A stretch of DNA of 64,000 nt from the NCBI RefSeq assembly GCF_004296575.1, contig NZ_SAYT01000001.1, positions 652,856 to 716,855 on the forward strand, given 5' to 3'. The position numbers were made by a program, and so were the translations under genes. Every line of letters starts with the position of its first letter. The first letter of the stretch is position 1. Source of the DNA: Dyella amyloliquefaciens. GTDB taxonomy: Bacteria > Pseudomonadota > Gammaproteobacteria > Xanthomonadales > Rhodanobacteraceae. This document shows positions 38,618-62,916 of the stretch, piece by piece. Under the pieces are notes generated by a model, which was given only the letters and a program-made list of their open reading frames with translations, did no database searches and was not told the DNA's origin.

Positions 38618-38693
38618 GCCGGTATAGCTCAGTTGGTAGAGCAACTGATTTGTAATCAGTAGGTCGCGGGTTCGACTCCTGCTGCCGGCACCA
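38618..38693 (+). tRNA. tRNA-Thr (anticodon TGT)
   Basis: A 76-base cloverleaf with acceptor GCCGGTA/TGCCGGC, D-arm AGCTCAGTTGGTAGAGC, anticodon stem CTGAT/ATCAG, anticodon TGT at 38651-38653, T-loop GGTTCGACTCC and encoded CCA at 38691-38693. The accessory region begins directly after it. Confidence 0.96.
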
Positions 38694-38873
38694 GATAAGC
38701 TCGTTAAATCAACAATTTGAAACTTTGTTGTTTCATCGCGTAGTTGGTTGCGAGCGGGGATTTTGAAGGGGTATTCCCCCAGAATTCCCCCACCGTGTCA
38801 CAGCGTATATCAGGACGCATCCCCCGCGGCTCCCCCTCCTCGCCAGCTCTATGGCAATCACGGGACTCAGCCG
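38694..38873. other. Candidate attachment-side junction of the accessory region
   Basis: Between the tRNA 3' end and the first gene lies AT-rich sequence and a G/C-run stretch with repeated TTCCCCC near 38770-38800. No gene is apparent. I did not find a second copy of the tRNA 3' end downstream by eye. Confidence 0.35.
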
Positions 38874-39530
38874 ATGCGTAAATGTGACGACCTTCTCAGC
38901 TTCTCGTTGCGTGCACTTGCGGACATAAGTGCTTCAGGGCGCTGCTCATCACCTATGGGCTACGCTGTTAAAACGATGCAGCATTCTTTGAGCCCTTTCT
39001 CGACGTTTCGTCAGACCATTTGGCGTCTGATGTCGGAGCGTCATTGTTGGGTTCATCTCATCCAGGAAAAAGCTGCGCGCATTGCGAGCGCATCACACCG
39101 GCAGACCAAGCTCGCGGAGCTCAATAAGGTCATCGCTCCGATGATCATAGCCGGCTTGGTCACATTGAACTGTGCCGGAGTCTTGCCCGTGCACTGTCTG
39201 CTCAAGTCGCTGGTTTACGCAGCGATCGGTATTGGTGTCGTTGCAGTCGTGGTCCGTCTGCTGACGGCGCAATCGCGCCGTCTCGGTGACTTCCTACGAC
39301 AGCATTGGCGCCTGGCCTGGCGGCTGGATCACCAGACGGTGATCAGTTTCGAACGGCCGCCGACGCACGCAATGTCCGTACTCGCCTCAGATGCTGCTTC
39401 GAGTCGCGCTAGCCTTGTTGAGCGTGACTCTCAGGAGCAGGCCCGTTTGCTCCGTGAACGAGCAGGCCTCATTGCCTTGATGCTATCGCCACGCGTTCTG
39501 CCCATCCCGACTCAGATCCGCGGCGCATAG
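38874..39530 (+). CDS. Hypothetical membrane protein (about 218 aa)
   Basis: Not a recognised family. Two hydrophobic segments occupy the middle (IAPMIIAGLVTLNCAGVLP and SLVYAAIGIGVVAVVVRLL), flanked by a basic N-terminal half and a charged C-terminal half (RASLVERDSQEQARLLRERAG). ATG 38874 is assumed; ATG 38955 and an upstream start at 38748 are in frame. It is the first gene after tRNA-Thr, of lower GC than the core genes. Confidence 0.5.
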   Translation: MRKCDDLLSFSLRALADISASGRCSSPMGYAVKTMQHSLSPFSTFRQTIWRLMSERHCWVHLIQEKAARIASASHRQTKLAELNKVIAPMIIAGLVTLNCAGVLPVHCLLKSLVYAAIGIGVVAVVVRLLTAQSRRLGDFLRQHWRLAWRLDHQTVISFERPPTHAMSVLASDAASSRASLVERDSQEQARLLRERAGLIALMLSPRVLPIPTQIRGA

Positions 39531-39933: not shown

Positions 39934-40493
39934 CACATCTCCGTTCCCTAAAAGAAAAAAGCTCGATAGCGGCCGACACCGCTACCGAGCTAGATATAGA
40001 TACGCGCCCTGTTGAGACGGCATCTCGTGACACCATAGCACAGGAGATCGGGCGAGACGGGTTCTCGGAAGAGCTGTACCTACTTTCGCAAAAGCACCCC
40101 GAACCGGTCAGGAATAGGTGGCTCCCTCAGAATGGTTTCATTCGAAGCAGCCACTCTGCATCAGCGTACGCGCGTTCACCTCACCAGCGCGCAGGCGGTT
40201 CTCGTAGTCGACAAGCTGTCCATGTGACGGAATTGGAGCTCGACGCGGCCTCTACTGCTTGCGTACAGGGCGAGATTTTCTATCCGCTAGCAATGCTGAT
40301 TGACGCAGAAGAAGCGGAAGAAGCAGGTGATACATCGTCCGACTTGATACTCGAGCTTGCACGCTCTACAGCCGGTCCTGCAAGGGCGATCCATCGCATT
40401 CGCCGTCAGGTACAACAACTGGGCGTCCAGCGTAAACGCACTGTTGGTACAGGGCAGTTGGGTTTCGCTGGCTTTGGCTGGGGCCTGATTTAA
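39930..40493 (+). CDS. Hypothetical protein of the replication-type module (187 aa)
   Basis: Not recognised. It has a Thr/Asp-rich N-terminal part, an acidic mid segment (LIDAEEAEEAGDTSSDL) and a basic helix near the C-terminus (IHRIRRQVQQLGVQRKR). It is coupled at both ends: ATGA overlap with the HTH gene and TAATG overlap with the initiator gene. That arrangement is the main support for it being translated. Confidence 0.55.
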   Translation: MTHLRSLKEKSSIAADTATELDIDTRPVETASRDTIAQEIGRDGFSEELYLLSQKHPEPVRNRWLPQNGFIRSSHSASAYARSPHQRAGGSRSRQAVHVTELELDAASTACVQGEIFYPLAMLIDAEEAEEAGDTSSDLILELARSTAGPARAIHRIRRQVQQLGVQRKRTVGTGQLGFAGFGWGLI

Positions 40494-41710
40494 TGAAGTA
40501 TGCCTCCCTAAAGGCCCTGGAGTCAGCTCCGAGGGCCGCTGAGTCACGCCCCCATGAAAGCCTGAACCGGGCCTTCATTGATCTATTGAAGAGACTAGCC
40601 AAAGCCGACATGAGCGGAGCTGCATTTCGCGTTTTTTGCGACATCGCTGCCCGATTCATGGAGGATGGTTGCTATTCGGAAGCGAGGGATCTTGAATGGA
40701 CAGCGGAACGCCTCGGGATCCACCGAAACACCGCTGGCAACGCCTACAAGCAGCTCACCACGGCCGGCCTTTGCAAGCGCAAGACTGTTTTCGAGCGGGG
40801 AGCACCCACACGTACTGAGCTTGCCGGGCCTGGTTTACATCTGTTGACCGTCACTGACGCTTGCCGTGGCATTGCTCTCAAATCCACAAGTGGTGAGTCA
40901 GCTGACTCAGGTCGGCACGAAAGCTTTGGAACCTTATGTGGTGAGTCATCTGCCTCACTCTCCAGGGTCGGCGTTGCAGCGGGCGGTGTTCTCGCGCGTA
41001 CTGATTCAACTGAATCAGTACAGACGCTAGGCGGCCGATCAGTTGGCTCAACCACTCAAACCGATTCAGTTGAATCAAGGCATGCCACCGTGACAGGCGC
41101 TCCGTCAGGTGACTCGCTTCGTCAAGTAACAGGCCAAATTACGTTTCATTCAAATCAGCCATTGCATGGCTCAAGTCTCACCTCGCAACGGAGGTCAGGC
41201 GAGGAGCGTCGTGCCATCGAGAGCGACCTCTGCGATGACACGTCTCGCCCAGCAAACAAACTCGCGCAGGAAATTCATCAAGCGATAGCCAAGAAAATAC
41301 CGTTCGAGGCAATGTACCTTGCGCTTCAGGGACTCCTCGCCGAGAAGGACATAGCCCCAACCTGGGGTCTCACAGAACAAGAGCGTGCATGCTTGATCAA
41401 GTTCACCAGGGAGAAGGACATCCCGGTCCAAAAAGAGAAGCCCGCCGCCAAGGCCATGCTCACCTGCGCCCCGCCCGCATTGGCAACGCTGCTATGGAAC
41501 AGCTACCCCCGTCTGGTCAAGCTCTCAGACAACAAACGTGCACACCAACTGCTCGACGAAATCGCTTTCGAGGTGACGCATGGGATGCTCGGCAACGGGG
41601 ATTACCCTGGCGGCGTTCGCGCGGCTCTGAGCATCGTGGCCAAGGGTACGTGGTCGCCGCCGAGGGGTTTCACGTCGGACTGGCGCGGATCTGTGTTGCG
41701 AAGCTTGTAG
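40493..41710 (+). CDS. Lambda-O-like replication initiation protein (putative)
   Basis: This 405-residue protein has a winged-helix-like N-terminal domain (about 42-125, with DLEWTAERLGIHRNTAGNAYKQL). A Ser/Thr/Gly-rich linker follows (about 128-215), then a helical C-terminal domain (about 235-400). The linker is encoded by a series of imperfect dyads at 40894-41115. Phage lambda O has the same plan: an N-terminal origin-binding domain, with origin iterons lying inside its own gene. The family assignment is inference from architecture, not sequence similarity. No helicase loader is seen next to it. It is the last gene of a coupled three-gene operon. Confidence 0.6.
   Translation: MKYASLKALESAPRAAESRPHESLNRAFIDLLKRLAKADMSGAAFRVFCDIAARFMEDGCYSEARDLEWTAERLGIHRNTAGNAYKQLTTAGLCKRKTVFERGAPTRTELAGPGLHLLTVTDACRGIALKSTSGESADSGRHESFGTLCGESSASLSRVGVAAGGVLARTDSTESVQTLGGRSVGSTTQTDSVESRHATVTGAPSGDSLRQVTGQITFHSNQPLHGSSLTSQRRSGEERRAIESDLCDDTSRPANKLAQEIHQAIAKKIPFEAMYLALQGLLAEKDIAPTWGLTEQERACLIKFTREKDIPVQKEKPAAKAMLTCAPPALATLLWNSYPRLVKLSDNKRAHQLLDEIAFEVTHGMLGNGDYPGGVRAALSIVAKGTWSPPRGFTSDWRGSVLRSL
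40894..41115. repeat. Cluster of imperfect dyad repeats (candidate origin iterons)
   Basis: Dyads with consensus TGA(G/T)TCA-N-TGA(A/C)TCA lie at 40894-40909 (perfect TGAGTCAGCTGACTCA), 40942-40957, 40999-41020 (arms TACTGATTC/GAATCAGTA), 41039-41050 (partial), 41063-41076 (arms GATTCA/TGAATC) and about 41104-41115 (half). Centres are 25-60 bp apart. All lie in the linker-coding part of the initiator gene. Confidence 0.65.
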
Positions 41711-42672
41711 GCTTGCACTGCAGGCGGGGCGTAGCACCAGAAAACTGGCGATGCACAAAAAAAGGTGCGCTAAAGCAACCGCTCTTTCCTTTAGATCTTT
41801 CTATTACAACCAACTTAACCTCTCCGTAGGGCGCATGACCAAATGGGTTGAGTTGGCTGGATGAAAATGGCGAAAGGCTAACGTCAGCCGGGCAAGTAGG
41901 GCAGCGGGACGCGAGGGGTGGCCAGGATGAGCTGCAAGGAATCGGGCAAAACCGCTTCGAAGCAGTTCAATTGCGCAGGTCCGTCAGACGGGGGTTGTCC
42001 TTGGCGGAGCCATAAGCGGCACCAAGTGAAGGGCGGGGGTGCTAACGATCCGGCCGCGATGAATACGCTGGGTCGCCGTGCTTGCAAAGAAAGGGTGAGG
42101 GCAGGGCCCGGCGCCGATTTAATATCCCAAAACGGCAAAAATATTAATTTAATATTGGCCCCCGGAATGCGGCTTTGTGCCTTTTAATAAATAACAAAAG
42201 CAATGACTTGCGTAAGTGTGGCCCTTGGTTTCAGCAAACTAGGTCGCGCGTCGCTCCTTTGCTGCTGACCCACGTTTGCCCCAGAGCCAGAGTGGGAGAT
42301 CGACGCCAGACCACTGGTCATTCGCGTGGCCCTCAGCCTTGTTATATGCCAGTTCGACAACGGATCTGGAACTGGCGCAACGGGCCTTGCAGGCCATATG
42401 TATAGCTGCAACGGCTACATCCCTGGAACACATGCTGTAGGAAGGAGAGTGCCGGGTTGACGCTTAGGGGCTGACATTAGATTAACCGTCGACGAGCCGA
42501 AGCAGGTGACTCCGTGTTGCTGACCCCCTGCGCGGCCTTCGGATTCGTCCGATGGTGTCCGGCCAGAGACATTTTGATACTGCATGGTCACTTCGTCAGC
42601 GGAGGCTTCGCTCTCCTGCGCAGCCCGCGCGCCTTCCGCATGACCCCTAACGAATTGATCCGGGTGCATGAC
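41711..42672. other. Gene-free stretch with AT-rich palindrome
   Basis: No convincing gene is seen in these 960 bases; short frames on both strands lack family features. The section 42118-42205 is strongly AT-rich in this GC-rich genome and contains the 17-base palindrome AATATTAATTTAATATT (42140-42156). It could be a promoter, a DNA-unwinding site or a remnant of the element. Confidence 0.5.
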
Positions 42673-56427: not shown

Positions 56428-59400
56428 ATGAACAAGATCTATCGCCTTATCTGGAACAAGAGCCTCGGCGCCATGGTGGCCGTGGGTGAACACACCGCTG
56501 CGCGCGGTAAGAAAAGCTCCGGCACTAATCGTGCCCAAAGAGCAGTGGTGGGTGCTGTGGCGGCCCTGGCGTTCGTCGCCGGTGGGGCACAAGCTTATGT
56601 GGTTAATTCTGGGAGTGTGACGAACGGAGGATCGGTTGCACCTACCGACGGCGGTTCGTCGTCAAACACCGCAATTGGCGGAGGCGCTATTGCGAGGAAT
56701 TCTTCAAACCCTTCTGACAATGCAGGAATTACAGCAATTGGCTATCAGGCAACTGCTACGGTTGGTAATGCGACCGCCATTGGTGAGGCCTCCGCGGCCA
56801 ATGCCGGTGGAAGCGTTGCAATCGGGCCCTCTGCGCAAGTTTACAGTGGTTCAGATTTTGGCCTCGCGATTGGCATGTATGCTTATGTGGGCGACAAGAT
56901 GGTCTCCACTGCTGCGACCGCTGTGGGCCCTGGATCTGAAGCAAATGGAGTCAATGCGGTCTCGATTGGTGGCTCGGCACGAACGTTGGGCGATGGTTCG
57001 GTAGGAATTGGCGCCGGAGCTCAAGGTTATGCAAAGGCTGCAACAGCAATTGGCTCAAATTCGCAAGCTACTGGCGTGTATTCGACGGCTATCGGTGCGG
57101 CCAAGACAACCGCAGACAGGTCGGTAGCGATCGGTCCCGCTGCGAACTCGTCGGCGCTCTCGGCCGCAGCCATCGGAGACACAGCATCGGCTAGCCAACA
57201 GAATGCAGTGGCTATTGGTGCTAACGCATCTGCTTCAATTGCTGGTGGTGTGGCGCTCGGTTCCGGTTCTAGCACCACAGTCGATGCCGGCGTAGCCGGT
57301 TACGTGCCGGGCGATGCCTCCAAGAAAATCAGTTCGGTCGACAAGGCCGCCATCGTCGCCACGGTCGCGAAGAACGCTGCCGTTGACGTTGGCAGCCGCC
57401 AGATCACGAATGTTGCCGCCGGCACCAACAACGGCGACGCGGTGAACGTCTCTCAGCTGAAGGCGGTGGAAGATCTCGCCAGCTCTGGCTGGAACGTCAC
57501 GGACGCCACGGGTGGTACTTCGCATACCGCCAACATCGGCCCGCAGGGCACGGTGACCTTCAGCAGCGCCGACAAGAACATGACGGTGACGGCGGGCGGT
57601 AAGCAGGATGCCGGCACCGTGCAGGTGCAGCTTGCCGACAACCTGGACCTGACCAAGGACGGCAGCGTCACCATGGGCACCACGGTGCTCAACGCCAAGG
57701 GCCTGGACATCAAGAGCACCTCGACCGTCCCGTCCGCTCCGGATGTGAGCATCACGGCCGCGGGCATCAGCGCCGGCATGAACAAGATCACCAACGTTGT
57801 CGACGGCGTGGATGCTAACGACGCCGTGAACGTGGAGCAGCTCAATAAGGCCAGCTCGCACTTCTACAGCGTCAACAGCAGCGACGCGACGGCTGCCAAC
57901 TACAAGAATGATGGTGCTACCGGAGTCAACGCCGTGGCCGCTGGCGTGGGTGCCTCGGCATCGGCCGACCACTCGGTGGCCATGGGCGAGCTTGCCTCCG
58001 CCACCACCGCCAACAGCGTGGCACTGGGCGCCAACAGCAGCACGTCCGCTGTCGTGGGCACCGACAGCGTCACGATCGGCAACACCACGTATACGGGCTT
58101 TGCCGGCACCAAGCCGGTGGGTACGGTGAGCGTGGGTTCCAACGGTAATGAGCGCACCATCACCAACGTAGCCGCAGGCCAGATCACCGATACCAGCACG
58201 GATGCGATCAACGGTTCGCAGCTGTACGCGGTGGCCAAGCAGACCAGCGATCTGTCTGATCGTACGGTGAAGTACGACCTGAACCCGGATGACACGGTGA
58301 ACTACAACTCGGTCTCGATGACCGGCGACGCGTACGACTCGACGACCAAGTCGGGCGGCACGCGCATCTCCAACGTGGCGGCTGGCGTGAATGGCGGCGA
58401 CGCGGTGAACGTGGACCAGCTCGATGCCGCCACGACGCACTTCTACAGCGTCAACAGCAGCGACGCGACGGCAGCCAACTACAAGAATGATGGTGCTACC
58501 GGCGGCAATGCCATCGCCGCTGGCGTGGGTGCCTCGGCCTCGGCCGACCACTCGGTCGCGATGGGCGAACTGGCCTCCGCGACGACCGCCAACAGCGTGG
58601 CGCTGGGTGCCAACAGCAGCACGTCGGATGTGGTGAAGACCACCGACATGACCATCGGTAAGAAGACGTACACCTTCGCCGGCGGCGCGCCGGTAGGCAC
58701 GGTGAGCGTGGGTTCGAAGGGTAACGAGCGCACCATCACCAACGTGGCCGCAGGCCAGGTGAGCGACACCAGCACCGATGCCATCAACGGCTCGCAGCTG
58801 TATGCCGTGACGTCCGATATGGAAGCGTCCAAGACGCATTACTACAGCGTCAACGACAACGATGTGCAGGGTGCCAACTACGACAACGACGGCGCCAAGG
58901 GTATCGACTCGCTGGCTGCTGGCGTGGGTGCCTCGGCGACGGGCTTCGCCGCACAGGCCGTGGGTTACAACGCCGTGGCTAGCGGCGACAATTCGGCCGC
59001 GTTTGGCCAGAGCGCCAAGGCCTCCGGCCCGGTGAGCGTGGCGATGGGTGCCTATAGCCAGGCCACCAACAATGAAGCGGTTGCCATCGGTGCCTTCGCC
59101 AAGGCTGCCGGCAATGGCGCGACGGCGCTGGGCGTGCAGGCGGATGCAGAGGGCGACCAGTCCTTTGCAGTGGGCAATGGCGCCACTTCGACTGGCGCTT
59201 ACAGCAACGCCCAGGGTTATGGCGCCACCGCCGGTACGCTGGGTTCCGTGGCAATCGGCCCGTTTGCCAATGCGTCGGCCAACAACGGCGACGTGGCGTT
59301 GGGCATGAGCTCCAAGACCAGCACGGTGGTGAATACCACCAGCGCGACGGTGGGCGACACCACATACACCGGCTTTGCCGGCACCAACGCGAAGAGCACG

Positions 59401-62400
59401 GTGAGCGTGGGTTCGGCCGGTAGCGAGCGCACCATCACCAACGTGGCCGCAGGCAAGATCACCGACACCAGCACGGATGCGATCAACGGTTCGCAGCTGT
59501 ACGCGGTGGCGAAGCAGACCAGCGATCTGTCCGATCGTTCGGTGAAGTACGACCTGAAGGCCGACGGTTCGGTGAACTACGGCACCTCGACGCTGGCTGG
59601 CGATGTTTCGACCGACGGCGGCGTGACGGGCGGCACCAAGATCACCAACCTGTCGCAGGGTGACGTGAACGCGACCAGCACGGACGCCATCAACGGTGCG
59701 CAGCTGTACGCCATCGCCGGTGACACCAGCAAGCAGTACACCAAGAACTACGGCGTGGGCGTGAAGTATGTGCGCACCAACGACAACGGGCTGACCGAGT
59801 CGGATGCGTTTGCACAGGGCCAGGGTTCGACCGCAGTGGGTTACAACGCCACGACGGCCGCCAACGCTCTGAACAGCGTGGCCATGGGCAACACGGCCAA
59901 CGCAGGCGCTTCGGGCAGCATCGCGATCGGTGCCAGCGCAACGACCAAGGGCATCGAAGGTATCGCCATCGGCCAGGGTGCGAGCGCAAGTGTTGCCTCC
60001 GCAGTCTTGGGCTGGGGTGCGAACGGTGGCGCTCTCGCCACGGCCGTGGGTGCACAGGCTTCGGCGGTGGGTTACCAGTCGACGGCGCTGGGTAACGGTG
60101 CGACTGCATCGGACGACGACAGCGTCGCTTTGGGTGCCAACAGCAGCACGTCCGCTGCCGTGGGCACGGACAGCGCCACGATCGGCAACACCACCTACAC
60201 GGGCTTTGCCGGCACCAAGCCGGTGGGTACGGTGAGCGTGGGCACGAAGGGTAACGAGCGCACCATCACCAACGTGGCCGCAGGCCAGATCACCAAGGAC
60301 AGCACCGACGCCATCAACGGCTCGCAGCTGTACTCGGTGGCGCAGCAGACCAGCGATCTGTCCGATCGTGCGGTGAAGTACGACCTGAACCCGGACAACT
60401 CGGTGAACTACAACTCGGTCACGATGGGCGGCGACGCTTATAACTCGGTGACCAAGTCGGGCGGCACGCGCATCTCGAACGTGGCAGCGGGCGTGGACGG
60501 CGGCGACGCGGTCAACGTCGACCAGCTCAAGCAGGCGAGCGACGATGTCACCTCCAAGGGCATGAACTTCGCTGGCAACAGCGGCGGCACCGTGCACCGT
60601 GACCTGGGCGACACGCTGGCCATCACCGGTGCAGCGACGACGGCCGGTACCTACTCGGGTGCCAACCTGAAGACGGTGACCGATCCGACTACGGGTGCAA
60701 TCCAGCTGCAGATGGCTGATGCGCCGAAGTTTGGCGGTGTGACCATCAACGACGGCAACACCGGCAAGATCACCGGCCTGACCGCTGGCGTGGACGATAA
60801 CGACGCGGTGAACGTGAGCCAGTTGCATGGTGTATCCGATCGCTCTGTGAAGTACGACCTCAATGCCGATGGGTCGGTGAACTACAACAGCGTGAGCATG
60901 GAGGGCGACAAGTCGACCGACGGCGGCAAGACGGGCGGCACCAAGATCACCAACCTGTCGCAGGGTGACGTGAACGCGATCAGCACGGATGCGATCAACG
61001 GTGCACAGCTGTACGCCATCGCCGGTGACACCAGCGACACCTATGTCACCAAGAACGGCAAGGGCGTGAAGTACGTCCGTACCAACGACACGGGCCTGGC
61101 CGATGCCGACTCGTATGCGCAGGGCCAAGGCTCGACGGCAGTGGGTTACAACGCCTCGGCGACGGCTGACAGTAGCCTGGCCCTGGGCCGCAACTCCGTC
61201 GCCTCGGTGGCCGACGGCATCGCGTTGGGCAGCAACTCGGTAGCCAGCACGAAGGCCGGTATCGCGGGCTGGGATGCCAAGACGGGCCAGGCCTCGACCG
61301 ACACCAGCGCCACCTGGAAGAGCACGCTGGGTGCACTGAGCATTGGCGATGCCGCCAACGGCCAGACCCGCCAGATCAACGGCGTGGCCGCTGGTTCGTC
61401 GGATACCGATGCGGTGAACGTCGCACAGCTGAAGGAAGTGGCGCAAGCCACCAGCGATCTGTCTGATCGTGCGGTGAAGTACGACCTCAAGTCCGACGGC
61501 ACGGTGAACTACGGTACCGCCACGCTGGCCGGTTCGACCTCGACCGACGGCGGCAAGACCGGTGGTACCAAGATCACCAATCTGTCCCAGGGTGACGTGT
61601 CGGAAGACAGCACGGACGCGGTGAATGGCTCGCAACTGTTCGCCATTACCGGTGACACCAGCGACACCTACGTGACCAAGAACGGTCGTGGCATCCTCTA
61701 CGTGCGTACCAACGACACGGGTTTGGCGGTGGCTGACTCGCATGCGCTGGGCCAGGCGTCGACGGCGGTGGGTTACAACGCCACGGCGAAGGGTGACGGC
61801 AGCGTGGCCATCGGGCAGAACGCCCAGGCCAACAATGCCAACGATGTCGCGATCGGTTCGGGTTCCACCACTGGCACGGCCAAGGGCACGGCCGGTGCCA
61901 CCATTGCCGGTGATCACTATGACTTCGCCGGTGCCAACCCGACGAGCACGGTGAGCGTGGGCTCGCAGGGTGAGGAACGCACCATCACCAACGTGGCGGC
62001 CGGCGAACTCTCGGCCGACAGCACGGACGCGGTGAACGGTTCGCAGCTGTATGCGACCAACCAGGCGGTGGACAAGATCAACACCACGGTCAACAACATC
62101 GCGGGTGACATCACCAACATCACGCAGGGCCAGGCTGGCATGTTCCAGACCAGCACGGACCAGAAGGCGCCGTCTCCGTCGCCGACCGGTACGAACTCGG
62201 CTGCGGGTGGTGCGAACGCTTCGGCGTCCGGCAGCAACAGCCTGGCGGTGGGCAATGGTTCGCAGGCCTCGGGTGACAACAGCACGGCCATCGGTACCAG
62301 CGCGAAGGCCACGGCCAGCAACAGCGTGGCGATTGGTGCCAACTCGGTGGCTGACCGCGCCAACTCGGTGTCGGTGGGCTCTGCCGGTGCCGAGCGCCAG

Positions 62401-62916
62401 GTCACCAACGTGGCGGCCGGCTCACAGGGTACGGATGCGGTGAACGTCAGCCAGTTGAAGGCGGCGCAGGCCGGGTCGGTGCAGTACGACACCAACGTCG
62501 ACGGCTCCACCAACTACAACTCCGTGACGCTGAACCCGGGCGGTAGCTCTACGACCATCCACAACGTGCAGGCCGGTTCGGCCACCACGGATGCGGTGAA
62601 CGTGGGTCAGCTGAGCGACGCCATCAACAACACGCAGAACTGGGCCAAGAACTACACGGACAACCAGATCAACCAGATGGGCAAGAAGGCTTACGCCGGT
62701 ACTGCTGCAGCCCTGGCTGCCGCCAACCTGCCGCAGGCCTACCAGCCGAACCAGAGCAGCGCGGGCGTGGGCATTGGTACCTACCAGGGCCAGAGCGCGA
62801 TCTCCATCGGTGTGTCGACCATCAGCGAAAGCGGTCGCTACATCTTCAAGGCCAGCGCCACCGGTTCTCAGCAGGGCGGCGTGGGCGTGGGTGTCGGCGC
62901 GGGCATGGTCTGGTAA
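56428..62916 (+). CDS. Trimeric autotransporter adhesin (YadA/Hia-like)
   Basis: This 2162-residue protein has an ESPR-type extended leader (MNKIYRLIWNKSLGAMVAVGE), with the Sec helix ending near residue 52. Long YadA-like head stretches (AIG-x-AxA-x-G repeats) then alternate with stalk/neck modules (NVAAG...DAVNVDQL). At least five near-identical VKYDL modules start near 58267, 59541, 60371, 60846 and 61471, with a divergent one near 62477. A C-terminal YadA anchor (about 2070-2162, GKKAYAGTAAALAAANLPQ) follows. It trimerises, inserts in the outer membrane and projects an adhesin. ATG 56428 follows CGGAGCACTGTT. The partner gene is the TpgA-like protein downstream. Confidence 0.96.
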   Translation: MNKIYRLIWNKSLGAMVAVGEHTAARGKKSSGTNRAQRAVVGAVAALAFVAGGAQAYVVNSGSVTNGGSVAPTDGGSSSNTAIGGGAIARNSSNPSDNAGITAIGYQATATVGNATAIGEASAANAGGSVAIGPSAQVYSGSDFGLAIGMYAYVGDKMVSTAATAVGPGSEANGVNAVSIGGSARTLGDGSVGIGAGAQGYAKAATAIGSNSQATGVYSTAIGAAKTTADRSVAIGPAANSSALSAAAIGDTASASQQNAVAIGANASASIAGGVALGSGSSTTVDAGVAGYVPGDASKKISSVDKAAIVATVAKNAAVDVGSRQITNVAAGTNNGDAVNVSQLKAVEDLASSGWNVTDATGGTSHTANIGPQGTVTFSSADKNMTVTAGGKQDAGTVQVQLADNLDLTKDGSVTMGTTVLNAKGLDIKSTSTVPSAPDVSITAAGISAGMNKITNVVDGVDANDAVNVEQLNKASSHFYSVNSSDATAANYKNDGATGVNAVAAGVGASASADHSVAMGELASATTANSVALGANSSTSAVVGTDSVTIGNTTYTGFAGTKPVGTVSVGSNGNERTITNVAAGQITDTSTDAINGSQLYAVAKQTSDLSDRTVKYDLNPDDTVNYNSVSMTGDAYDSTTKSGGTRISNVAAGVNGGDAVNVDQLDAATTHFYSVNSSDATAANYKNDGATGGNAIAAGVGASASADHSVAMGELASATTANSVALGANSSTSDVVKTTDMTIGKKTYTFAGGAPVGTVSVGSKGNERTITNVAAGQVSDTSTDAINGSQLYAVTSDMEASKTHYYSVNDNDVQGANYDNDGAKGIDSLAAGVGASATGFAAQAVGYNAVASGDNSAAFGQSAKASGPVSVAMGAYSQATNNEAVAIGAFAKAAGNGATALGVQADAEGDQSFAVGNGATSTGAYSNAQGYGATAGTLGSVAIGPFANASANNGDVALGMSSKTSTVVNTTSATVGDTTYTGFAGTNAKSTVSVGSAGSERTITNVAAGKITDTSTDAINGSQLYAVAKQTSDLSDRSVKYDLKADGSVNYGTSTLAGDVSTDGGVTGGTKITNLSQGDVNATSTDAINGAQLYAIAGDTSKQYTKNYGVGVKYVRTNDNGLTESDAFAQGQGSTAVGYNATTAANALNSVAMGNTANAGASGSIAIGASATTKGIEGIAIGQGASASVASAVLGWGANGGALATAVGAQASAVGYQSTALGNGATASDDDSVALGANSSTSAAVGTDSATIGNTTYTGFAGTKPVGTVSVGTKGNERTITNVAAGQITKDSTDAINGSQLYSVAQQTSDLSDRAVKYDLNPDNSVNYNSVTMGGDAYNSVTKSGGTRISNVAAGVDGGDAVNVDQLKQASDDVTSKGMNFAGNSGGTVHRDLGDTLAITGAATTAGTYSGANLKTVTDPTTGAIQLQMADAPKFGGVTINDGNTGKITGLTAGVDDNDAVNVSQLHGVSDRSVKYDLNADGSVNYNSVSMEGDKSTDGGKTGGTKITNLSQGDVNAISTDAINGAQLYAIAGDTSDTYVTKNGKGVKYVRTNDTGLADADSYAQGQGSTAVGYNASATADSSLALGRNSVASVADGIALGSNSVASTKAGIAGWDAKTGQASTDTSATWKSTLGALSIGDAANGQTRQINGVAAGSSDTDAVNVAQLKEVAQATSDLSDRAVKYDLKSDGTVNYGTATLAGSTSTDGGKTGGTKITNLSQGDVSEDSTDAVNGSQLFAITGDTSDTYVTKNGRGILYVRTNDTGLAVADSHALGQASTAVGYNATAKGDGSVAIGQNAQANNANDVAIGSGSTTGTAKGTAGATIAGDHYDFAGANPTSTVSVGSQGEERTITNVAAGELSADSTDAVNGSQLYATNQAVDKINTTVNNIAGDITNITQGQAGMFQTSTDQKAPSPSPTGTNSAAGGANASASGSNSLAVGNGSQASGDNSTAIGTSAKATASNSVAIGANSVADRANSVSVGSAGAERQVTNVAAGSQGTDAVNVSQLKAAQAGSVQYDTNVDGSTNYNSVTLNPGGSSTTIHNVQAGSATTDAVNVGQLSDAINNTQNWAKNYTDNQINQMGKKAYAGTAAALAAANLPQAYQPNQSSAGVGIGTYQGQSAISIGVSTISESGRYIFKASATGSQQGGVGVGVGAGMVW
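57859..58502. repeat. Direct repeat pair inside the autotransporter gene
   Basis: About 65 bases starting CACTTCTACAGCGTCAACAG occur at 57859-57923 and again at 58438-58502 with one mismatch, 579 bp (193 codons) apart. They could recombine in frame. Confidence 0.85.

Follow-up and report, generated by a model that had tools for sequence, protein, structure and literature searches.

A probable plasmid-type replication initiator with candidate iterons in its linker-coding DNA, in a tRNA-Thr island of Dyella amyloliquefaciens

Replication origins can lie inside the genes of their own initiators. In the O protein of phage lambda, an N-terminal helix-turn-helix (HTH) domain is followed by a variable linker and a C-terminal domain, and four 18-bp iterons occupy the middle of the gene (39034–39118 of J02459) beside an AT-rich unwinding region that is also inside O. 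On large repABC plasmids, for which Ti C58 served as our yardstick, the initiator gene repC follows parA and parB; PMC3155836 places the origin within the repC coding sequence and describes no iterons there. SGI1 represents a third arrangement, a chromosomal island with its own rep gene and an iteron-type oriV, which PMC7433901 places immediately downstream of rep, with iterons that are 17-bp direct repeats and proteins of the RepA_C or replicase/PriCT-1 type. Here we analyse 64,000 nucleotides of D. amyloliquefaciens DNA (the window; contig NZ_SAYT01000001.1) that contain a gene, rep, with palindromic repeats (dyads) in the DNA that codes for its linker. We favour, with fair confidence, the reading that this gene encodes the Rep protein of a plasmid-derived integrative element and that the dyads are its iterons. 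Judged from sequence comparison, the gene most likely belongs to a new family of plasmid-type initiators that an integrative element has captured and whose probable binding sites, as iterons, lie in coding linkers.

Three observations suggest that the protein is initiator-like: homologues of rep lie directly downstream of parA–parB in 4 of 4 plasmid-type loci, related dyads stand beside rep in 6 of 6 loci, and the GC-skew minima of two circular plasmids fall within 5–7 kb of rep. Two of the parA–parB–rep loci are on complete circular plasmids, NZ_CP088981.1 and NZ_CP088924.1, one of 205 kb and the other of 218 kb. These large Rhodanobacter plasmids carry F-type tra genes; rep is annotated on them as a hypothetical protein, and the genes just downstream are hypothetical too. 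Their PLSDB gene tables, which are incomplete, name no replication initiator (one names relatives of dnaB and dnaN), and the MOB-suite typing shown for both gives no replicon type. In NZ_CP088981.1, a ribonucleotide reductase and a Tn3 transposase are encoded in two large stretches that its table does not list. The minimum of the detrended cumulative GC skew is 7.1 kb away from the middle of the rep/dyad region on one plasmid and 5.0 kb on the other, with an amplitude above that of all 500 one-kb block shuffles in each case.

Six distinct full-length members define the family: those of the window, of Dyella jiangningensis SBZ 3-12 (genome G005), of the plasmids NZ_CP088924.1 (locus L001) and NZ_CP088981.1 (L002), of Rhodanobacter sp. 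67-28 (L016/L072) and of genome G125 (L015). The counts of six do not include G155, G148 and L071, which have identical or near-identical copies. The homologues are about 31–39% identical to the window protein; in plasmid records, tblastn gave two matches, both from Rhodanobacter, at 31–32% identity over 92–97% of the length. By genome, homologues occur in 2 of 20 from the genus and 6 of 233 from the family. An order-level sample yielded matches in 14 of 398 genomes, two of them full length and the other 12 confined to the HTH, although the listing of that sample lacks the carriers G005, G125, G155 and G159 and does not show whether they were drawn. In the class-level sample, the only match among 369 genomes was the window's own. 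Nearly all of the full-length homologues found are from Rhodanobacteraceae. A single-sequence scan of genome contigs found no homologue, and an alignment-based scan found three loci. One contig of a metagenome-assembled genome labelled Castellaniella (L071) encodes a protein that is, by eye, near-identical to the Rep of the R. denitrificans plasmid. We rejected a phage origin of rep, as tblastn gave no phage match and viral contigs contained none.

The window dyads follow the pattern TGAKTCA-NN-TGAMTCA. The initial annotation had counted six, with a 1-bp spacer; we found four good copies and one weak one, separated by 48, 60, 60 and 39 bp from start to start, and a half-like stretch near 41039. 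The spacer is 2 bp, and the single perfect 16-bp palindrome that had been described is indeed present, at 40894. The repeats exceed chance: the 64 kb contain four dyads with at most one mismatch, whereas 100 shuffles that kept dinucleotide composition averaged 0.03 and never reached four. In the 4.83-Mb genome, 6 of 13 exact sites of the broader family motif (TGANYCR-N2/3-YGRNTCA, 16–17 bp, half-site TGANYCR) are within the 53-kb island that carries rep; a reversed control pattern finds one.

Across the family, with the broader motif and up to one mismatch, the homologues without dyads that the initial annotation had regarded as contrary evidence did not appear. Where the dyads lie varies. They are inside rep in four of the six loci, always between the parts that encode the HTH and the C-terminal domain, and absent from it in two, so the intragenic placement holds for part of the family. 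Four loci have a larger, non-coding array upstream of rep: nine upstream and none within the gene on NZ_CP088924.1, five and one on NZ_CP088981.1, five and two in L015, and twelve and none in L016. D. jiangningensis has two in rep and five 3' of it, and the window has four in rep. Among the neighbouring genes compared (over 20 kb for L015 and L016), rep alone adjoins dyads in all six loci. Because of this, and because it has a DNA-binding domain, Rep is probably the simplest ligand of the dyads.

The dyads could instead be mobile palindromic repeats, or the by-product of a repetitive ESxDS linker peptide, with no function as DNA. Peptide bias does raise their number: ES/DS peptides account for part of the dyad count, but not all of it, because shuffles of synonymous codons that preserve the protein yield a mean of 0.9 dyads (family motif, at most one mismatch) and reach at least four in 12 of 2,000 cases. 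Tandem copies at 39 bp, found in a second island gene, also resemble ordinary repeat expansion. However, L015 reads its dyads in a different frame, as TQxGS rather than ESxDS, which indicates that the DNA and not the peptide is conserved. The upstream arrays of four loci are non-coding, and exact sites are localised to rep: the two complete plasmids have 7 and 4 in their 2.2–2.3-kb rep regions, against 0 and 1 elsewhere. We therefore consider this explanation very unlikely. A role as parS centromere sites for ParB, to which the four plasmid-type loci might point because their dyads separate parB from rep, seems at least as improbable. The same dyads persist beside and inside rep in islands in which ParA and ParB were not detected: tblastn with the ParA and ParB of both plasmids gave no match at E ≤ 1e-4 to the stretches that contain the two Dyella islands, and the single ParB_N match in the window's genome is on another contig. 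As no ParB was found there, the island dyads are unlikely to be parS, although a partition protein of an unrecognised kind could bind them.

A second conserved element, which we regard as a candidate unwinding or primer region, follows rep. This AT-rich block is conserved in 6 of 6 loci, with 20 alignment columns that do not vary (200 shuffled alignments had 6 at most), and in five loci the lowest or tied-lowest 60-bp GC window within 1.5 kb on either side of rep is within or overlaps it. In the window, the block has the second-lowest 60-bp GC near rep, and the lowest-GC stretches (42137 and 41757) are both 3' of the gene. The lowest 60 bp within 1.5 kb of rep include an AT-rich palindrome, AATATTAATTTAATATT (42140–42156). 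The block gives no case for an RNA structure: an AACCAAC/GTTGGTT stem is kept, but its outer seven pairs have no compensatory changes and the covariation term is unfavourable.

The position of this block bears on the comparison with lambda, where iterons and unwinding region are together inside the initiator gene. A strict version of that arrangement, with the whole origin inside rep, would suit the mid-gene dyads of four loci, which resemble the iterons in O. It is unlikely in our view, given that two of the six loci have no intragenic dyad, that four have their larger array upstream and that the conserved AT-rich block is outside the gene. The lambda-O-like plan proposed in the initial annotation therefore stands for the layout of the gene and not for an origin contained within it; because the AT-rich block sits 3' of rep, the data suggest an origin made up of the dyads and the 3' block.

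The dyads also occur in a second gene. Both Dyella islands contain a three-gene cluster, the third gene of which encodes a protein of 346 or 384 amino acids with a C-terminal Xre/MbcA/ParS domain (E = 5.7e-6 and 1e-5) and has dyads in its own linker-coding DNA that encode ESxDS or DSxES. Three of the 13 exact sites in the window's genome are within this gene. Viral contigs searched for dyads at a pitch of 39 bp contained none. More tentatively, and with somewhat less than even confidence, we suggest that the iterons of this unnamed initiator family migrate between non-coding arrays on plasmids and coding linkers in integrated elements, where they would have entered two unrelated genes at a codon-compatible pitch of 39 bp. 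If so, sites for replication or copy control would be written into, and would shape, disordered protein linkers. Homologues of the middle cluster gene (L067:31943-32437 and L044:8777-9217) are near tyrosine integrase genes, both on Rhodanobacter plasmids.

The protein has an HTH at about residues 30–110, a linker at about 120–250 and a helical C terminus. The family alignment has invariant HRN and RGAPTRT motifs, in the recognition-helix region and the presumed wing, respectively. A structure model from four sequences has low overall confidence (mean predicted local distance difference test score (pLDDT) 48.5); it predicts HTH-like helices at the N terminus (blocks 56–76) with no beta wing, and residues 97–256, with pLDDT below 50, would be the linker. 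Modelled separately, the C-terminal part is predicted to be all-helical (mean pLDDT 75.5). The earlier domain plan is thus consistent with the models in its linker and helical C terminus, whereas the winged N terminus that it named, although probable, draws on weak profile and fold matches and was not modelled with a wing. Among 50 of the 167 Foldseek matches of the low-confidence full model, most were winged-HTH DNA-binding proteins; all had E > 0.6, so only an HTH is indicated. A sequence search of the PDB gave a best E of 0.097. In-frame stops follow the rep stop codon in the window (41708–41780), and the profile search runs on across two of them.

Several findings weigh against an initiator and its iterons. 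The window protein has no above-cut-off match in Pfam or NCBIfam, and thus no curated family, and in PHROGs its best match has E = 0.077 and no initiator family is matched. The C-terminal model matched no fold at E ≤ 0.001 among PDB structures and viral models; this equally means that the match to a non-replication fold that the initial annotation had set down as contrary evidence did not emerge. In the alignment, the window protein stops 7–16 residues before its relatives at the C terminus. None of the six rep genes has an exact DnaA box (TTWTNCACA) within 1.5 kb, and no dyad lies between rep and the 3' block in the window. The positions of the skew minima have P values of 0.065 and 0.049, from related plasmids that are not fully independent. 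With one mismatch allowed, the dyads of the complete plasmids are less concentrated at rep (9 are in its region and 7 outside on one plasmid, 6 and 8 on the other), and rep is not the sole gene shared with the islands, as both plasmids carry relatives of the middle cluster gene.

An alternative is a transcriptional regulator of the element, with the dyads as scattered operators like those of plasmid global regulators and no part in the start of replication. The HTH resembles those of the MarR, GntR, Crp and MocR groups, so a transcription factor would also fit, and palindromic sites of 16–17 bp would suit a dimeric one. Sites are dispersed in or near several genes: in the second gene; at single positions away from rep, namely L037:10792 in the window's genome and L039:9335 in D. 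jiangningensis (one mismatch, 135 bp upstream of a 1766-aa open reading frame (ORF), a possible operator); and, at up to one mismatch, in coding DNA at L002:5773 (the 3' end of parA) and L016:12997 (parB). Against this stand the dense arrays beside rep, next to parAB, on large circular plasmids for which no other initiator is named; the nearness of those arrays (5–7 kb) to the skew minima; the conservation of the 3' block; and the sites in linker-coding DNA, together with the six that another gene contains at intervals of exactly 39 bp, which would be odd for operators. We judge the regulator to be unlikely.

The initiator reading can be set against each described system in turn. The domain plan and iterons inside the gene are shared with lambda O, with binding by Rep putative here; the differences are an AT-rich block that lies outside the gene, on its 3' side, the dyads outside rep and the neighbouring genes, which are for partition or integration. 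Sequence likeness to O had been described as not obvious, and what we found is weak and N-terminal: an alignment of the family with three O proteins (hhalign) had a probability of 18% (E = 0.0013), phage_O_Nterm reached E = 0.09 in one of six members, and the window protein had no match to the N-terminal profile of phage replication protein O (TIGR01610). The PHROGs initiator families were matched by three of six members; L015 matches them first, with a best E of 3.7e-5. Among four control winged-HTH regulators, these families were top-ranked in none, and one control matched them, at E = 0.024 to 0.058, with five better matches to other families.

With RepC the plasmid relatives share the parA–parB–rep order, which is absent from the window and from the D. 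jiangningensis island; they differ in the abundance of their dyads, iterons not being described in repC in PMC3155836. Membership of the RepC family was rejected: RP-C is absent from the 19 families matched by the six members at E ≤ 1, and hhalign gave a probability of 2%. The window's own genome has no RP-C (PF03428) match, and 1 of 14 control genomes matched, below the cut-off. Membership of the Rep_3 initiators (PF01051) is not supported, with Rep3_N matched by one of the six members only, at E = 0.38. The likeness to SGI1 is that of an integrated island with its own rep, here with an integrase gene and direct repeats, one of which is the end of a tRNA gene; the Rep proteins here have no RepA_C or replicase/PriCT-1 Pfam match, and the sites are palindromic and in several cases intragenic, compared with the direct repeats described for SGI1 in PMC7433901. 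The two complete Rhodanobacter plasmids have a homologous rep, the same class of dyads and the 3' block; unlike the window island, they have retained parAB and tra genes, and their dyads form a non-coding array. The Rep system may work like O, RepC or SGI1, and by the tests run is a member of none. In the literature searched, no title or beginning of an abstract names this Rep family.

We propose that dimers of the N-terminal domain would bind the 16–17-bp dyads as iterons and that several bound dyads would bring Rep to the AT-rich block just 3' of rep, where the strands would open; the C-terminal domain would then recruit the host helicase, and the excised circle would copy itself. The same dyads may also hold copy number down, or serve to repress rep along with other genes of the island. 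On the plasmid relatives they would act as a non-coding array between parB and rep, and in the integrated elements, in which parAB was not found, they would do so from the linker-coding DNA of rep and the second gene, and in D. jiangningensis also from the 3' side. If this is correct, the family would provide the large Rhodanobacter plasmids with the initiator that their gene tables lack, together with a search signature (parAB–rep, TGANYCR dyads and a 3' AT-rich block). It would also document the passage of a plasmid replicon into an integrative element, with iterons kept by a shift into coding DNA, and would make the puzzle of origins inside initiator genes, posed by lambda O and repC, testable in a third family that profile tests do not link to them.

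The island itself has identical 49-bp attachment repeats 53 kb apart (Table 1), and an intact-looking tyrosine integrase gene (350 amino acids; Phage_integrase, E = 1.9e-28) is beside attR. An empty site was found in one of 18 other genomes of the genus (G000, the window's genome, and G005 apart; about 1.5 kb of the downstream side was covered): in G017 the gene beyond attR follows the tRNA after about 280 bp. The proposal of a replicating element or its remnant is supported because the 53-kb island has a tRNA-Thr attachment site and an integrase; autonomous replication would be a further step. The 108-aa protein encoded ahead of rep has weak matches, neither of which passes the cut-off, to HTH_17 (E = 0.0048) and to 'excise' (E = 0.029). 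Directly upstream of rep, where the plasmid loci have parA–parB, lies the 187-aa gene. Phage O genes have a helicase-loader gene (P or similar) as a neighbour; the next gene identified downstream of rep in the window is fatty-acid-hydroxylase-like. In D. jiangningensis, a 32-kb island occupies the corresponding tRNA gene; it shares rep, the integrase and the first three genes with the window island and also encodes a TrwB-like coupling protein and a relaxase of the TrwC type. A search of the window's genome for relatives of this relaxase, run without a positive control and confined to that relaxase family, found none. Because of its short end and this missing match, the window copy may be a partly decayed remnant.

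Table 1. Coordinates of rep, its dyads and associated island features (window positions unless a contig or locus is given)
Feature	Position	Strand	Details and basis
Putative replication initiator (rep), 405 aa	40493..41710	+	ATG 40493, stop 41708-41710, ORF as first annotated; homologues, four beside parAB; structure models
Dyad 1, TGAGTCAGCTGACTCA	40894..40909		exact; perfect 16-bp palindrome; encodes ESADS
Dyad 2	40942..40957		1 mismatch
Dyad 3, TGATTCAACTGAATCA	41002..41017		exact arms, non-palindromic centre; 11-nt arms over 24 bp, 40998-41021
Dyad 4	41062..41077		1 mismatch
Dyad 5, weak	41101..41116		3 mismatches
Conserved AT-rich block 3' of rep, candidate unwinding/primer region	41765..41870	+	roughly GCTCTT...TCTnnnAnAACCAAC...GTTGG; invariant columns, GC
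tRNA-Thr(TGT)	38618..38693	+	last 49 bp (38645-38693) = attL; ARAGORN, exact repeat, empty site
attR, identical 49 bp	G000:C1:744734-744782		window-equivalent 91879-91927, beyond the window; exact repeat
ORF, 260 aa, first island gene	38748..39530	+	52% identity in D. jiangningensis island
HTH_17/excisionase-like, 108 aa	39607..39933	+	74% identity in D. jiangningensis island; weak profiles, tblastn
Protein of unknown family, 187 aa	39930..40493	+	overlaps rep start; 61% identity in D. jiangningensis island
Xre/MbcA/ParS-domain gene (G000)	L037:13593-14633		3 dyads in linker-coding DNA
Xre/MbcA/ParS-domain gene (D. jiangningensis)	L039:12654-13808		6 dyads, exact 39-bp pitch

The 205-kb Rhodanobacter replicon evidently occurs both free and inserted, because a near-unchanged copy is present in a chromosome-size contig of G148 (C1:2004360-2261705, L049–L062). 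Over the first 163 kb, this copy is about 99.6–100% identical to the plasmid, except for a stretch of about 3.6 kb with an insertion sequence (IS) transposase. It is flanked by two copies, in direct orientation and 241 kb apart, of a region that measures about 16 kb, and a third, inverted copy is between them. According to PMC8809349, two versions of the R. denitrificans 2APBS1 genome differ by a 0.24-Mb deletion, attributed to assembly; if G148 is R. denitrificans 2APBS1, loss of the 205-kb plasmid would fit that deletion.

Other cargo of the D. amyloliquefaciens island includes a gene of about 1,887 codons for a YadA-like trimeric autotransporter adhesin, a sensor kinase gene and, by eye, a chaperone-usher-like fimbrial cluster; between them, the adhesin gene and the fimbrial cluster account for window 57250–62913 and L038 3–5360. 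A short tandem repeat that reads KHQAPST and VLGAWCL on the two strands is also within the island, at L037:10919-11166.

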